From Candidatus Kapaibacterium sp. (lineage in GTDB: Bacteria; Bacteroidota; Ignavibacteria; Kapaibacteriales; UBA4661): DNA of 34,332 nucleotides. Every line of letters starts with the position of its first letter. The first letter of the stretch is position 1. A program made the position numbers and the translations under genes. The stretch lies in the NCBI GenBank assembly GCA_004292595.1, contig RDXM01000116.1:1-34332 (forward strand), written 5' to 3'. Under the pieces are notes generated by a model. It ran no database searches and had not been told where the DNA came from. It saw only the letters and a list, made by a program, of their open reading frames with translations. Positions 2,961-34,156 of the stretch are shown piece by piece.

Positions 2961-4262
2961 TTAGGTTTCAATGTGGAATTGATTTGCCTCGGTCGAGCCA
3001 GCAAGCGCGGTTGTGGAAGACATTCCGCCGCTCACAACTTCCGACACGAGGTCGAAATAGCCCGTGCCAACTTCGCGTTGGTGCTTGACCGCCGTGTAGC
3101 CATGCTCTTCAGCAGCAAATTCTGCTTCCTGCAATTCGGAATAGGATGCCATTCCACGCTCTTTGTAGCCTTTTGCGAGGCTGAACATAGAGAAATTCAG
3201 TGCGTGGAAGCCCGCAAGCGTTACGAATTGGAATTTGTAGCCCATTGCGCCTAATTCGCGTTGGAAAATAGCGATTTCTTGTGCGCTGAGATTGCGTTTC
3301 CAGTTGAAGGACGGCGAGCAGTTATACGCCAGCATTTTATTCGGGAATTTTTCGCGGACGGCTTCAGCAAACATCCGTGCTTCTTTCATATCGGGTGTAG
3401 CGGTTTCGCACCAGAGCAGGTCGGAATATGGCGCGTAGCTGAGTGCGCGGGCGATTGCGGATTCAATGCCCGGACGCACACGGTAGAAGCCTTCGTGGGT
3501 GCGCTCTCCGGTGCAGAATTCTTTATCGCGGTCATCAACATCGCTCGTGAGCAGGTCTGCGCCGTTGGCATCGGTGCGAGCAATGACGAGCGTTTGTGTG
3601 TTGCAGACATCGGCTGCAAGCCGTGCTGCTACGAGGGTTCGGATGAAATGCGACGTCGGCACAAGAACTTTTCCGCCCAAGTGTCCGCATTTTTTCTCCG
3701 ACGCAAGCTGGTCTTCAAAGTGAACACCCGCCGCCCCCGCTTCAATCATGGATTTCATGAGTTCAAAGGAATTCAATGGACCGCCAAAACCCGCTTCCGC
3801 ATCAGCAACAATCGGAGCCATCCAATACATTCCATTTTTGCCTTCGGAATGATGGATTTGGTCGGCGCGTTGGAGTGTTTGATTGATGCGCTTGACAACA
3901 TGCGGGACGCTGTTTGCGGGATAGAGGCTTTGGTCGGGATACATTTGCCCCGCTAAGTTTGCATCTGCCGCCACTTGCCAGCCAGAAAGATAAATTGCCT
4001 GCAACCCAGCTTTTACCATTTGCATTGCCTGATTACCCGTCAGTGCGCCCAAAGCATTGATATAATCTTCGGTACGCAAAAGTTCCCAAAGTCGTGCTGC
4101 ACCGAGTTCAGCAAGCGAATACTTGATATCGACCGTTCCACGTAATTTTAGAACTTCTTCTGGTTTGTAGGGGCGCGTAATCCCGTCCCAGCGCTCGTGA
4201 GAATGCCACTCTTGGAAGAGTTGAGCAGCAGTTTTCATTGAGCTTTTTGTCGTCGTACTCAT
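2961..4262 (-). CDS. aceA: isocitrate lyase
   Basis: Cleaves isocitrate to glyoxylate and succinate, opening the glyoxylate shunt that lets cells grow on acetate or fatty acids. The 433-residue product matches the usual length of about 434. The active-site signature KKCGHL is at residues 190-195 (catalytic Cys192), SGWQVA at 93-98, and the Mg-binding segment ADAEAGFGG at 153-161. The ATG at 4262 was chosen because GGAG lies 8 nt upstream. A GTG two codons earlier (4268) would sit too close to that site. It is transcribed divergently from prfA and has its own terminator. With aceB about 1 kb downstream it completes the shunt. Confidence 0.97.
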
Positions 4263-5908: not shown

Positions 5909-8900
5909 ATGAAGCGCATGATTGCTCGTTCTTGGTATTACGCATTGGTGTTTGCCTGTATGCTCACTGGTTTGTTGTTATTCTCTGCAAGCCTTGCTAT
6001 TGCTCAAAAAGTAGAAGAAATGCGCTTGGAGCGGATTTCTGAGGAGCAGGGCTTATCCAGTTCGATTGTCAATACCATTTTTCAGGATTCTCGCGGTATT
6101 TTGTGGTTTGGCGCGTTCGATGGCTTAAACGAGTATGACGGCTTGCATTTTCGGCAATTTCACCAGCAGCTGCCCGATTCTTTATCTACGGGAATTAGCA
6201 CCATTACAGCTCTTGAGGAAGACTACACAGGTGCGCTTTGGTGCGCCACTCGGAGCACAAAAGGGATAAGCCGCTTCAATACTCGCACACAGAGCTTCGA
6301 CTTTATTCCTTTCCCTGCTTCGTTGCGCCCACTCGTTGTGCGTACAATCTGCGAAGATGCTGATAAAACCTTGTGGATTGGCACCTCGCGTGGGTTACTG
6401 CGCCTCGACCGTAGAACCATGTCGTTTCAGCCCGTCGTACCAAGCCCGCAATCAAGAGAAGGACAAGATAGAGAAGGACAAGATATTTTGCAGATTATCA
6501 GGGGTGCTGGTCAAACCTTGTGGCTTGCCACGCCTACAAGTCTGTACGCGCTGGACAGAAGCCGAAACTCCCTGCGCAGGATAGACTGCGGCTTGCAGCC
6601 AAACACACGTATCAGGACGTTTACCGTGCAGCAGGACAGTCTGCGCAGTACGCAGGGTGCAATACACCCACAAACGCGCCTTTGGATTGGCACAGACAGC
6701 GCAGGAGTACGTTGTATTGATGCGGAAAGCGGACAGATTCTCGCTTCCTACACAGAAGCAGACGGCTTAACGAGTAATACTGTATTTTCGTTGCTTTGCC
6801 TTGAGAGCGGCGAAGTGTGGGCGGGAACAAATCAAGGAACAAGCATTTTAAATTTTGTAGGGCAATCTTTGAAAATGCCCGTTATTACTCGATTGCAGCC
6901 TGTTACCAATAATCCATACACGTTGTCGGGGAATGTAGTGCAGGCACTTTTTGAAGATGCCTCGGGTGTTGTGTGGGCGGCATCGGAGTTTTATGGATTG
7001 AATAAATATGCGCGGTTTCGTCATAAATTCCGTCATATTTCGGTTTCACTGCGCATGGAAAACTCTTCATTATCCAGCAATTATGTTCGCGGAATAGCAG
7101 AAACTCCTGCCAACGGCACAGCAAAACGCTTTCTCTGGTTTGCCACACAAACAGGCGGTCTGAATCGCTTTACTCCCGAAACGAATGAATGGGCATATTT
7201 TCGTAAGGATAAACTTGGCAGCGATACCGCATGGGCACTTCGCTTTGATGGCAACAATACGTTATGGATTGGCTTAGTGCATGGTGGTTTATGGAGCTAT
7301 AATGTTCAAACGCAAGCAATGACGAGGTTTGTAGGGATTTCGGCTGATGCGGTCATTCAAGTGATATATGTAGATAAGCAAGGAATGGTCTGGGTTGCAG
7401 GCGATTCTTTTCCTCTGACATCCTTGCCCCACAACAATACACCGTTGCGCCAGTATAGCTTGCATACCAGCAATCACGACACATTAGGGCGTGAAGAGCG
7501 TATTTTGTGTGTTCTTGAGGACCGGCGCGGACGATTTTTAGTTGGTACGGACAAAGGTTTGCGCGAATTCGACCGCGCAACGGGCAAAGTAACGGTGCGG
7601 CTTTCGGGCGTTGTTGTGAGTGCGTTGTATGAAGATGCTTCGGAAGCATTATGGGTGGGGACGCGAGGACAGGGATTGCAGCAATATCGCCGTGTAGAGT
7701 CTGGTGCGAGTGCCGTGCAGGGTTCATCAACACAAGGTTTGTACACTTCTCCCTTTGTTCTTGCCGAGCGCGATGGTCTGCCAAATAACACAATTAGCAT
7801 GATTTTATGCGATGCCGCAGGTCTGCTCTGGGTAAGCACCAAGCGGGGTTTGGTGCAGATTGACCCAGAGCAGCGCAAAGTTCTGCACGTGTACGACACG
7901 GACGACGGCTTGCAAGGCAATGAATTTCATCGTGGTTCTGGGTTTTATTCAGCATCCGGCGAAATGTTTTTTGGTGGTGCGAATGGCGCAAACGCATTTA
8001 TTCCAACAAAAATGCTGTACAACCAATCACCACCGCCTGTTATTATTTCTTCAGTAAAAAACGCCGAGAGGTCTGAACTCCTGATAGATTCTACGATTCA
8101 AGCAACACGCACGATTTATTTGCGGCACGATGAAAACACACTCACATTTAGTTTTGTGGGGCTGGATTTCAACTCACCAGAGCGCAATATTTTTGCATAC
8201 AAATTGGATGGTTTAGACAAGGCATGGATTCAGTCAGGAACGAGTCGTGAAGCCACGTACACGAGCCTTGAACCAGGCGAATATACGTTTCGTGTGCGGG
8301 CAGCAAATAACGATGGTGTTTGGAATGAAGAAGGCGCAACAATGCAGATTGTGATAGCTCCTCCTATTTGGCGCACATGGTGGTTTATCGGTTTGTCGAT
8401 TGCAAGCGTTGTGTGTATTGGCTTTGTGGCGTATCGTGCAAGAATTCGCGGTATTGAAGCGCGGAATGAATTGTTGGAAAAGCAAGTAACAACGCGCACT
8501 TCAGAGCTTCGAGAAGCAAACGTAGAGTTGCAGCAAATCAATCATAAATTATCCGATTCATTAAATGAAATCCAGATTTTAAGCTCTGTTCTGGACGGTG
8601 AGCGAAATAAGTCGGAAGATTTATTGCTGAATATTTTGCCGCCCTCAATTGCAGAACGCCTGAAGTGGGGCGAAACCACGATTGTCGATACCTTCGAGAG
8701 CGCGACGGTGCTGTTTAGCGATATGGTAGGCTTTACAAAAATTGCATCGCGCGTAACGCCAGAAGAGCTTATTATCATGCTCAACAGAATGTTTTCTGTT
8801 TTTGACCAACTTGCCGAAGTGCATGGTGTAGAAAAGATTAAGACGATTGGCGATGCGTATATGGCGGTCGCAGGCGTACCAATTCCTAACGATGAGCATG

Positions 8901-29844: not shown

Positions 29845-29881
29845 AAAAAACGCCGAAAGTTTCAGACTTTCGGCGTTTTTT
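29845..29881 (+). terminator. strong Rho-independent terminator of the ribosomal superoperon
   Basis: A perfect 16-bp inverted repeat (29845-29860 and 29866-29881), with the core CGCCGAAAGT and a 5-nt loop, is flanked by A and T runs so that it can end transcription in either direction. It lies 25 nt past the rplQ stop. Confidence 0.93.
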
Positions 29882-30009: not shown

Positions 30010-31419
30010 ATGCGTCCAATTATTGTGCAAGAGAATGATAATCAAGAAGAAGTAATCACCCAACGACTTGCCGACTTATTGAATTTCTCTATCCAAGAAA
30101 TTCAAGAACAGTACTGTGATGACACTTTGCCTTGGGTTATTGGTTTTTCAGGTGGTAAGGATAGCACCGCAGTCTTGCAACTGGTTTTTACTGCAATTAG
30201 CGGATTACCAGTAGAGAAGCGAGTAAAAGAAATTCACGTCTTGTCGAATGATACGCTTGTTGAGAATCCCAAAGTTATTGAGTATCTTGACCGGCAGCTA
30301 GATTTGATTCGTGCTACTGGAAAAACTCGTTTGTTTGCTCACAATCCCGCATTATTTCATGTGGTCAAGACCGTTCCAAAACTTGAAGATACATTTTGGT
30401 TGAACCTGATTGGAAAGGGCTATCCGTCGCCAAATCGTTGGTTTCGGTGGTGTACGGAGCGGATGAAAATTAACCCTACCAGTGATTACATCCTCAAAAC
30501 AGTCAATAAGCACGGTAAAGCTATTATCTTACTCGGAACACGCAAAGATGAATCCGCTAATCGAGCAGCTTCTATGAAGCAATACGAGCTTGAGGGTGTG
30601 CGCCTCAGAAAACATACATTGCCAAACGCTTTTGTGTTTGCTCCCATTGCAGACATGACAAACAAGCAAGTGTGGGCGTATTTGACACAAAATCCAAATC
30701 CTTGGGGTGGCGATAATCAAGAGTTAGTGCGCTTGTATTACAGTGCTTTCGATATTCAGGAATGTCCTCTTGTTATTGATACCACAACCCCTAGTTGTGG
30801 TAATTCGCGCTTCGGATGTTGGACGTGTACAGTCGTTGATAAAGACAAATCAATGACGGGCATGATTCTGAACGGTGAAGAATGGATGCGCCCATTATTG
30901 AAGTTTCGAGACAAACTTAAAGATATTCGTGATAAGGAAGAGTATAGAGAAAAGCGTCGTAGATCTGGGCAAGATGGTATAGGACCGTTTACTATTGAAA
31001 CAAGAAAAGAAATTCTTGAAGAACTACTTACTATTCAAGAACAGATATATCCTAAAATTCAGACACAACTCATTAGTATCCAAGAGCTTTCAGCAATTCA
31101 AGTGCAGTGGCATTATGACGGTAAATTTCAATATTCCGTCGCTGAAATCTACCAACGAATAACAGGGAGAAGCCTGATGCTTTCTGAATATTCCTCTCTT
31201 GAGCGTCGCCAAGAGGAATTCGCGCTCCTAGAATCAATAAGTGAACAGAATGATGTTCAAGCAAATCATATCAAAGAATTGTTAGAACTTGAACGAGTGA
31301 ATTTCGGTCACCTCCGGCGTAGTACTATCTTTGCTAATATGGAGCAGAAAATTAGACGTTTTATCAAAGAGAATGATGATGCAACAAAAGATGGATTCAG
31401 CTTTAGTTTACCTCAATAA
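30010..31419 (+). CDS. DndC-like phosphorothioation sulfurtransferase (PAPS-reductase family)
   Basis: Resembles DndC, the ATP-pyrophosphatase/iron-sulfur protein that activates DNA and passes sulfur into the backbone in Dnd systems. In the 469-residue product the PP-loop SGGKDST lies at 47-53. Four cysteines that fit DndC's [4Fe-4S] cluster are C148 (FRWCTERMK) and C263, C270 and C273 (CGNSRFGCWTC). LLGTRKDESANRA (174-186) is also typical. A strong AGGAG 5 nt before the ATG sets the start. No dndA, B, D or E neighbours are visible in the window; instead the HNH gene overlaps its 3' end. Other members of the family act in BREX-like loci, so the true substrate is uncertain. Confidence 0.85.
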   Translation: MRPIIVQENDNQEEVITQRLADLLNFSIQEIQEQYCDDTLPWVIGFSGGKDSTAVLQLVFTAISGLPVEKRVKEIHVLSNDTLVENPKVIEYLDRQLDLIRATGKTRLFAHNPALFHVVKTVPKLEDTFWLNLIGKGYPSPNRWFRWCTERMKINPTSDYILKTVNKHGKAIILLGTRKDESANRAASMKQYELEGVRLRKHTLPNAFVFAPIADMTNKQVWAYLTQNPNPWGGDNQELVRLYYSAFDIQECPLVIDTTTPSCGNSRFGCWTCTVVDKDKSMTGMILNGEEWMRPLLKFRDKLKDIRDKEEYREKRRRSGQDGIGPFTIETRKEILEELLTIQEQIYPKIQTQLISIQELSAIQVQWHYDGKFQYSVAEIYQRITGRSLMLSEYSSLERRQEEFALLESISEQNDVQANHIKELLELERVNFGHLRRSTIFANMEQKIRRFIKENDDATKDGFSFSLPQ

Positions 31420-32344
31420 GTTCAAGCGGCTGCGAAGGGATACTTCACACGGGGAGCCAGCACCGCACAAGCCCATTCTTCTCATTTCAATTTTGGAGCA
31501 TATTGGTAAGAATACCATACAGACAAATAAGATTTACATCACCCCAGAACTTATTGCTACATTTAGGGAGAACTGGTCACTCCTTGCTTCCACTACGAGG
31601 CACAAGCCTAACTTTATCTTGCCATACAGCTACTTGCGAGGAGACAAGTTTTGGCACATTGTAGCTCGTAGAGGTTTCCAAGCTATCTTGGATAAGTCCA
31701 AATTGCGTACTTTTAGTGAAGCAGAAGAAATTGTTGAATATGCTTGTTTTGATAAAGAGTTGTACGAATTATTACAGAAGTCAAGTACTCGACAGGAGTT
31801 TTTACAAAATTTATTGATCACATATTTTCCTGAATCGCAAAATAGATTTTGGGATAAAACCTCTGATAATACCTATCTAATGGATGTTGAGAATAAAGTT
31901 CTGCATAATACTCAACAAAATTATCGTGCTGAATACGAACAGTTGCCTGACGAAGAGCGTTTTGTTCGTAAAGGAGTTTTCAAAAAAGTTGTACCTCGTC
32001 TCTATGGTTACTCTTGCTGTATTTCAGAACTCAAAATAGATTCTCTTTTCGATATTGCAATGGTGGATGCCTGTCATATTGTTCCGTTCAGTTCCTCATT
32101 TGACGACACGATTAAAAATGGCATTTCCCTCTGCCCCAATTTGCATCGTGCATTCGATAGAGGAATGATAACCATTGACCAAAATTACAAAGTCGTCATT
32201 TCCAAAACGTTTGTGGAGAACCTGAATGTCTATGGTATTAGGCAATTTGAGGGCAAAACTATTCGTTTGCCAAATGATTCCCAGTTTTATCCGAGCCTTG
32301 ATAATCTTGCGTGGCATCAGCAAAACATTTTTAAGAAATCGTAG
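31391..32344 (+). CDS. HNH endonuclease with McrA-like N-terminal domain
   Basis: A 317-residue protein. The C-terminal HNH_2-type nuclease has a cysteine pair (C209, C210 in YGYSCCISELKI), H229 in DACHIVPFSS, N243 in KNGISLCPNLHRAFDRG and H252, the H-N-H order of an active site. The N-terminal part opens with a pattern (APHKPILLISIL at about 24-35, then NFILPYSYLRGDKFWHI at about 74-90) that I recall from HNH restriction enzymes with a sulfur-binding domain for phosphorothioate DNA. The start at 31391 gives a 29-nt overlap with the dndC-like gene; an ATG at 31373 is also possible. The overlap implies coupled translation and shared function. Confidence 0.82.
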   Translation: MDSALVYLNKFKRLRRDTSHGEPAPHKPILLISILEHIGKNTIQTNKIYITPELIATFRENWSLLASTTRHKPNFILPYSYLRGDKFWHIVARRGFQAILDKSKLRTFSEAEEIVEYACFDKELYELLQKSSTRQEFLQNLLITYFPESQNRFWDKTSDNTYLMDVENKVLHNTQQNYRAEYEQLPDEERFVRKGVFKKVVPRLYGYSCCISELKIDSLFDIAMVDACHIVPFSSSFDDTIKNGISLCPNLHRAFDRGMITIDQNYKVVISKTFVENLNVYGIRQFEGKTIRLPNDSQFYPSLDNLAWHQQNIFKKS

Positions 32345-32590: not shown

Positions 32591-34156
32591 ATGCCAAGCA
32601 AACAAGCACATAAACAGAAATCACAGAAAAAAGTAACAACGACCCAATCAAATCAGCAGAAGTTTTTGAAATATTCCTCGTTTCTTCTCATGCCCGCTTT
32701 ACTATTGGCTTGGTGTGTTGGATATTATAGTGTTGGTGGGGAAATAATTGGGCTAAATCGGGGTTTTGGGTGGGACGGAGTTACCTACGGTTCATTTGCA
32801 TACATATTTGATACACTTCTTGCTACGCCTGTTTTAGACCCCTATTTGGCACAGCGCGTCTTGCCGAGTGGCTTGATTCATTATGCTTTGCCTTTTCTTG
32901 GGATTGACCTAGACAGTAAAAAAAATATTTTGCAGGCATTCATTGTTTTGAATACCATCTGTGTTACTGTTTCAGGCGGATTGTGGGCGGCTATTGCTGC
33001 TAAATTGCGTTTGTCCCTGAAAGTGCAGTGGCTCGGTTTTATCGCGCTGTTTTGTAATTGCGCTGTGATGAAAATGAGTGTATATTATCCACCACTTACG
33101 GACGTTCCTGCATTTTTTCTTTCCATGCTTGCGCTTTTATGCTATGTTTATCGGTTTCAGACGCTTCTTTATCTTGTGAGCGCGTTAGCGTATTTTACGT
33201 TTCCGACGGGATTTTATATCTGCTCCGTCCTCATTATTTTGCCATTTGCACCCTTGCAGACGCATAATCGCCTAGCCTCTACTTCGACTGATTTCTTTGA
33301 CAAACGAATACCAATCGTCATAACCAGCGTCGCTATTCTCGTTGCTGGTGCTTTCATATGGTATTTCGCTTTTTTCAAAAAGGTTGTGTTTCCTGGTACA
33401 GAAAGCATTTTCGAGCCTACGTTACTCATCGCTATTCCTTTGATGCTTGGGTATATCGGAGGCATTGTTTGGATAGTGAGTAGCCTTTTGCCATGGCAAT
33501 ATATTCTGAACATTCTCAAAGACAAATTCTTTTGGGTACGAGTTGGCTCAGTGGGGCTTTTGTGGGGCTTCTTGCTGTTTTGTCGAATACATTTTCTCCA
33601 AAACCCCGATCCACGTGTTGCCACGCCCATGAATGTGCAGCTATTTTTTGGTGGTAGTTTTTCGTTATCTATTGCAAAGCCCTTACTGCCGTTTGTTTCT
33701 CACGTTGTATATTTTGGTCCGATGGTGATTCTGGTGGCATTATTTTTTCGCTCAATTATTCAATCCTCATTGCAACAAACTGGTCTCGGTATCGTGGTTG
33801 TCATAACGATTACAGCACTTATGAGCGGCATTATGAGCGAATCTCGGCAGCTTATTAACCTCATACCGTTTATGATGTTTGGCGTGGCAGTGGCAATGTC
33901 GGGGCGCAATGTCCAACGCTGGCACATTGGCGTTGTAGCGGTCGTGGGAATATTTTGCTCAAAGTGTTGGGTGCAAATGAATTACCCTGACATACAAACA
34001 AGCAGTTTTCTTTCAGGAAAACTGGTCGTATTTCCAGCGCAATGGTACTTTATGAATTTTGGTCCGTGGATGAGTATGGTCAGCTACGTTTGGCAAATAA
34101 GCATTATTACTGTGATTGGATTAGCGTATGCGTTTATATTTTTGAGAAGCAAATAG
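32591..34156 (+). CDS. polytopic membrane protein of unknown function
   Basis: A 521-residue integral membrane protein not assigned to a family. The first 25 residues are highly basic and hydrophilic (KQAHKQKSQKK) and should stay in the cytoplasm. About ten to twelve hydrophobic segments follow, starting near residue 28. Acidic residues occur in loops after the first helix (GFGWDGVTYG, D62) and in YYPPLTDVPAFFL (D171). That layout, with early-loop aspartates and AQRVLP, recalls GT-C glycosyltransferases or related polyprenyl-linked sugar enzymes, but no diagnostic motif was confirmed. Not obviously linked to the dndC/HNH pair, from which the repeat region separates it. Confidence 0.75.
   Translation: MPSKQAHKQKSQKKVTTTQSNQQKFLKYSSFLLMPALLLAWCVGYYSVGGEIIGLNRGFGWDGVTYGSFAYIFDTLLATPVLDPYLAQRVLPSGLIHYALPFLGIDLDSKKNILQAFIVLNTICVTVSGGLWAAIAAKLRLSLKVQWLGFIALFCNCAVMKMSVYYPPLTDVPAFFLSMLALLCYVYRFQTLLYLVSALAYFTFPTGFYICSVLIILPFAPLQTHNRLASTSTDFFDKRIPIVITSVAILVAGAFIWYFAFFKKVVFPGTESIFEPTLLIAIPLMLGYIGGIVWIVSSLLPWQYILNILKDKFFWVRVGSVGLLWGFLLFCRIHFLQNPDPRVATPMNVQLFFGGSFSLSIAKPLLPFVSHVVYFGPMVILVALFFRSIIQSSLQQTGLGIVVVITITALMSGIMSESRQLINLIPFMMFGVAVAMSGRNVQRWHIGVVAVVGIFCSKCWVQMNYPDIQTSSFLSGKLVVFPAQWYFMNFGPWMSMVSYVWQISIITVIGLAYAFIFLRSK

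Follow-up and report, generated by a model that had tools for sequence, protein, structure and literature searches.

A gene for the sulfurtransferase DndC is overlapped, in the place where a relative carries dndD, by a gene for an endonuclease that joins a sulfur-binding domain to an HNH domain (SBD-HNH). Judged from comparative sequence evidence, what is new is a pair of these two genes with dndD absent, formed at least twice independently and with its DndC kept under selection; SBD-HNH genes near dnd genes and SBD-SRA-HNH proteins within Dnd loci are already known (PMC7461809; PMC10853773), and we found no report of a DndD-less dndC-nuclease pair in the open-access literature. We tentatively read the pair, with a little less than even confidence, as a retained two-gene defense module, derived from a Dnd locus but lacking DndD, in which the nuclease has replaced DndD as the partner of DndC.

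The window, that is, the whole stretch of DNA analyzed, is a complete contig (G000:C87) of 34332 bases from a draft, fragmented genome (G000) of 4.6 Mb and 96.5% completeness. It holds a ribosomal-protein operon with rplQ as its last gene, followed by a strong stem-loop terminator that sets the operon apart from the dndC-nuclease unit, then dndC, the SBD-HNH nuclease gene and a 521-aa ORF. The annotated features are:

29845-29881, + strand: stem-loop terminator between rplQ and dndC, with 17 pairs and a T tail.
30010-31419, + strand: dndC, sulfurtransferase of 469 aa, from TIGR03183, the PADLOC DndC model and invariant residues.
31391-32344, + strand: SBD-HNH endonuclease gene, 317 aa, with its start from homologue alignment and its assignment from HNH_2 and NF045808.
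31391-31837, + strand: sulfur-binding domain, residues 1-149, from phmmer, family profile and predicted fold.
31967-32341, + strand: HNH nuclease domain, residues 193-317, from its fold similarity to TagI 6ghs and the motif H229-N243-H252.

Both overlapping ORFs that the preliminary description had placed at 30010-32344 are present there. Aligned homologues of the nuclease begin at the residue equivalent to the ATG at 31391, giving an overlap of 29 nt with dndC; ATGs at 31373, 31376 and 31379 are other possible starts, and across the candidates the overlap spans 29-47 bases. A TTG at 31331 (89-base overlap) is probably too early and finds no support among homologues. The translational coupling proposed earlier is probable. 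The 521-aa ORF that lies 3' of the nuclease (32591-34156) is hydrophobic and has no Pfam, NCBIfam or PADLOC match.

The first ORF had been described as an orphan DndC with a PP-loop and four cluster cysteines. It is a full-length TIGR03183 member (458.7 bits, above the curated cut-off of 290.4) that scores 506.5 bits against the PADLOC DndC model, and its PP-loop is intact (SGGKDST, residues 47-53); the cysteines, in turn, number five rather than four (C148, C252, C263, C270 and C273), each invariant across 22 DndC proteins. Its predicted structure was too poor for use (mean pLDDT 65.5), and a sequence search found no solved structural relative. The word orphan proved apt as well, with no dndD or dndE adjoining and genome searches for DndD and DndE-HerA coming back empty while a congener (G283, described below) served as control. 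For DndD, the best matches in G000 reached 31 bits or less, those at 31 bits coming from ORFs some 1240 aa long that resemble SMC-type ATPases, against 396 bits in G283 by the same search and 442 bits in G744, a further positive control. The DndE-HerA protein of the congener, used as query, had no match in G000 and matched in G283, G403 and G404; a TIGR03184 (DndE) search of G000 also gave no match, in a run that had no positive control. Within the window, tblastn with the congener's proteins returned chance matches only for relics of dndD, dndB and dndE, no dnd cluster lies elsewhere in the 34332 bases, and no gene for a cysteine desulfurase (DndA/IscS) is linked to the pair. A complete dnd cluster near the pair, of which the nuclease gene would be a chance neighbor, was found neither in the window nor elsewhere in G000. 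The assembly lacks DndD, which in a 96.5% complete genome is not proof of absence, and the genomes nearest to it in the comparison are likewise fragmented drafts.

The second ORF is, by sequence and predicted fold, an SBD-HNH protein in which both the reader pocket and the catalytic motif are kept, and phosphorothioate (PT)-dependent cleavage is predicted for it. HNH_2 matches with 45.3 bits, and NCBIfam NF045808 (PT-DNA restriction endonuclease) with 99.8 bits, short of its 180-bit cut-off; DndC-linked relatives of the nuclease score 125-138 bits with the latter model. As a single sequence in phmmer, the ORF in its long form matched the solved SBDHga1 (8h0l) over residues 23-158 (E 7e-15), and a profile of the nuclease family matched 8h0l (1.6e-22), ScoMcrA (5zmm, 2.7e-18) and the SprMcrA SBD, with TagI and VcaM4I matched in the C-terminal half. 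The structure model (mean pLDDT 81.9) superposes its SBD on 8h0l with Z 21.1 and rmsd 2.3 over 145 residues and on the ScoMcrA and SprMcrA SBDs with Z 13-14, and its HNH domain on TagI 6ghs with Z 15.4 and rmsd 2.1 over 110 residues. The N-terminus, proposed as a phosphorothioate reader fused to HNH, is thus a true SBD, structure prediction and sequence profile agreeing that it is related to solved sulfur-binding domains. The sulfur pocket of ScoMcrA is lined by H116, R117 and P165 (PMC6224610), to which H26, K27 and P78 correspond here, Lys being usual at the second of the three; where ScoMcrA has Y164, which the family does not conserve, the window protein has Leu, like SBDHga. The catalytic residues H229, N243 and H252 are intact and invariant in our nuclease alignment (A3). 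No SRA domain was matched, nor any NTPase domain with Pfam and NCBIfam.

The last result bears on the idea that the SBD-HNH protein senses PT as self and cuts unmarked invaders in the manner of SspE or DndI, with sulfur supplied by DndC together with host proteins. PT-sensing nucleases that act with a PT-marked host do exist, namely DndI (PMC11662687) and SspE (PMC9646914), and such a role was proposed by Iyer and colleagues for the wHTH(SBD)+SAD+HNH proteins that Dnd loci encode (PMC10853773). We nevertheless think it very unlikely here, as it requires host phosphorothioation without DndD, characterized SBD-HNH enzymes cut marked DNA (PMC7461809), and an NTPase domain was not matched. A phage origin of the pair was considered and rejected, since single-sequence scans of viral contigs gave no relative of either protein. 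A profile scan of the same kind of contigs did return SBD-HNH proteins, the best at 41% identity to that of the window; its gene (L230:921-1913) has resolvase-like ORFs nearby, and no dnd genes were recognized among the listed ORFs of that contig.

The chromosomal site points to where dndC came from. The congener G283, a Kapaibacterium MAG, carries beside rplQ a locus (L002) that runs nucleotidyltransferase-substrate-binding protein, nucleotidyltransferase, dndC, dndD, an ORF that we read as GIY-YIG and that has no Pfam match, dndB and dndE-herA. The closest relative of the window genome (G275, rplQ 98% identical) has at the rplQ site the genes for the nucleotidyltransferase-substrate-binding protein and the nucleotidyltransferase without dnd genes, and a search of the G275 genome gave no DndC. 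Relative to G283, the genes on either side of dndC are gone in the window, and the SBD-HNH gene that overlaps dndC occupies the place of dndD. Between window and G283, dS is 1.30 for DndC and 1.35-1.44 for rpoA, rpsK and rplQ. Because the rplQ site is the same and the dS values are close to those of the flanking genes, dndC probably descended vertically, and the pattern fits a dnd locus that would already have been present in the common ancestor of window and G283 and of which all but dndC would have been lost or replaced in the window lineage. A recent transfer of dndC alone is not favored on the same two grounds, dS above 1 being a coarse clock; a coincident transfer could also give this arrangement.

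The same pair recurs elsewhere. In a comparison set of 87 full-length DndC proteins, dndD lies directly downstream of dndC in 79; three of the remaining 8 loci (L006, L034, L048) run off the contig. SBD-HNH is the next gene after dndC in 3 of the 5 dndD-less loci with enough sequence (the window, L005 and L213) and in 0 of the 79 dndD-bearing ones (Fisher p about 1e-4, computed with 80 for 79 and on loci that are related). The two genes are separated by 6 bases in L005 (G403) and overlap by 8 bases in L213 (G415). Against a module stand the cyanobacterial dndD-less loci L070 and L081, which are without SBD-HNH, and L050, L068 and L114, in which an apparently intact SBD-HNH gene lies no more than 8 kb from a complete dnd locus; coexistence of an intact SBD-HNH with complete dnd is not always excluded.

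Three Acidobacteriota genomes (G403, G404 and G415) hold dndC together with this nuclease, adjacent in G403 and G415, and DndD was not found anywhere in these three assemblies, with G283 and G744 as positive controls. All three keep a DndE-HerA gene, which is without match in the window genome, and the acidobacterial and window systems may differ in this respect. In G404, dndC sits at one contig end and the orthologous nuclease at another, with no exact overlap joining the two; by eye, the ends (L214:11929-12046 and the end of L006) share a similar stretch in opposite orientation, and an element with inverted ends may sit between the two genes.

In the DndC tree, the window protein pairs with DndD-bearing L002 and that of L213 with DndD-bearing L212, while in the nuclease tree the acidobacterial enzymes form one clade and that of the window falls among stand-alone Bacteroidota enzymes. 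A tree constrained to keep the four nucleases of DndD-less genomes together is worse by 51 log-likelihood units (AU p 0.0002). With a single nuclease clade rejected and separate places in both trees, the nuclease gene came to follow dndC directly at least twice independently, separately in two phyla, and this recurrence suggests an undescribed small DNA-defense module. The fuller version of this reading, in which dndC and SBD-HNH make up a separate minimal defense system with at least two origins from Dnd and DndC, working without DndD and bound to the nuclease in its stead, either gates that nuclease or marks invader DNA for it to cleave, is possible, but we doubt it rather more than we credit it.

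Other DndC-like genes without DndD came to light in the comparison. Three Bacteroidota genomes encode a short DndC-like protein of 345-357 aa (L177:4518-5591, L178:6813-7877, L179:6730-7767), the L178 copy reaching 270 bits to TIGR03183, below the cut-off; the genes overlap one for a protein of about 220 aa that is hydrophobic near its start (no Pfam match for the L178 copy), possibly another two-gene unit. At L176:6931-9314, L221:7316-10017 and L222:7615-10082 an IscS-like gene immediately precedes a short DndC-like gene with no DndD nearby, followed in L176 by ORFs that look DUF262-like and helicase-like by eye.

The DndC proteins of the window and G283 are 86-87% identical, with dN/dS of 0.064 and equal branch lengths (0.091 and 0.090) for the window and its DndD-linked sister L002, figures that are the weaker evidence because the loss of DndD in the window lineage is undated. 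The stronger figure comes from G403 and G404, both without DndD, where dN/dS is 0.078 over dS 0.79 and DndC seems to have persisted in the absence of DndD. Moreover, each of the 77 alignment columns that do not vary among 18 diverse DndD-linked DndC proteins is likewise unchanged in four DndD-less ones. Even where DndD is missing, DndC is held under strong purifying selection (dN/dS about 0.08). These data weigh on the explanation that a dnd locus decayed to dndC and that a stand-alone SBD-HNH type IV enzyme landed beside it, DndC having no role in restriction. Such a history would accommodate the loss of the genes on both sides of dndC and a window nuclease whose nearest relatives are stand-alone Bacteroidota enzymes encoded away from dnd genes, and the undated loss of DndD means that selection on this DndC copy without DndD cannot be timed. 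It sits badly with the constraint on DndC in G403 and G404, with the survival of every family-invariant residue, with a window DndC whose rate of evolution does not exceed that of its DndD-linked sister, and with a nuclease gene directly after dndC, overlapping or a few bases away, in two independent cases. A bare decaying remnant fits poorly, and we consider this explanation unlikely.

The preliminary description saw a paradox in a sulfur-inserting enzyme paired with a nuclease that reads sulfur, as cutting the host's own DNA would be lethal. The pair is real, and the paradox was overstated. Phosphorothioation in Streptomyces lividans requires every one of dndA, dndC, dndD and dndE (PMC2653506), and because DndD is absent here the host should not make the canonical mark on its own DNA; a reader nuclease would therefore be tolerable, self-cutting need not be invoked, and the paradox largely dissolves. 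Writer and reader together may indeed be harmful, as suggested by two broken cases set against the three apparently intact ones nearby: L170 has an SBD fragment (6662-6860) that ends after about 65 residues just upstream of intact dndC-dndD-dndE, and in L173 the SBD-HNH gene (3376-3930), upstream of dndB-dndC-dndD-dndE, is interrupted by several stops and has suffered a large deletion. This fits the expectation in the literature that few such nucleases occur close to dnd clusters, fewer than 3.6% of about 3000 SBD-HNH enzymes lying near dnd genes (PMC7461809).

The broken genes beside intact dndC-dndD also speak against a host in which DndC still inserts sulfur with the help of a replacement DNA motor, DndE-HerA in Acidobacteriota and some ATPase in the window genome, and the nuclease cuts the DNA so marked, either as abortive infection or with a nuclease motif different from the motif that the host itself marks. 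The full retention of the DndC catalytic residues and the persistence of DndE-HerA in 3 of the 4 genomes agree with this, there is a precedent in SspC, an ATPase of another family that replaces DndD in Ssp systems (PMC12707154; PMC10853773), and sequence preference varies among SBDs (PMC7470945; PMC6224610). The window genome, however, has neither DndD nor DndE-HerA, and we judge such marking and cutting quite improbable.

In the module that we prefer, a host without DndD (and here without DndE) would not phosphorothioate its own DNA, and a PT-dependent nuclease would thus not be suicidal and could restrict incoming phosphorothioated DNA, like the type IV enzymes ScoMcrA and EcoWI. IscS, DndC, DndD and DndE assemble in gene order, DndC binds DndD, and DndC alone tends to insolubility (PMC4611135). 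In the weakest step of the proposal, DndC, normally bound to DndD, would now bind the nuclease and dose or gate it; with DndC translated first and the genes coupled, the nuclease would never be made without its partner. This partnership is the only step of the module reading that would be new biology. DndC has been regarded as serving no purpose unless DndD and DndE are present, and SBD-HNH nucleases as enzymes of hosts that lack phosphorothioation; the pair, formed twice and with its DndC under selection without DndD, makes both assumptions directly testable with two genes, and would reveal either that DndC has a further function or that simpler machinery can make a PT mark.

Compared with known systems, the unit shares with DndABCDE a DndC that is a full member of its family and a congener with a complete locus at the same chromosomal site, but differs in that DndD and DndE-HerA were not detected in the window genome and the nuclease gene stands in the place of dndD. 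With the type IV enzymes SprMcrA, EcoWI and ScoMcrA it has in common the N-terminal SBD, the His-Lys plus Pro pocket and the C-terminal H-N-H, whereas ScoMcrA carries an added SRA domain that has no match here; SBD-HNH type IV enzymes are mostly stand-alone, while this gene overlaps dndC with dndD missing and its product scores below the NF045808 cut-off. SBD-HNH nucleases linked to dnd genes are also represented by the wHTH(SBD)+SAD(SRA)+HNH proteins found in Dnd loci of 698 taxa, in a survey that likewise describes DndE-HerA fusions next to a DndD-related ATPase (PMC10853773). Its starting point was DndD/CxC-DndE, in contrast to a pair without DndD and without an SRA match; the survey appears centered on these proteins and would therefore have missed DndD-less pairs. 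Finally, SspABCD-SspE resembles the unit in using a sulfurtransferase (SspD) without DndD next to a PT-sensing nuclease, but SspD is only a distant relative of the window DndC (46 bits), and SspB, SspC and SspE have no counterpart in the two-gene unit.
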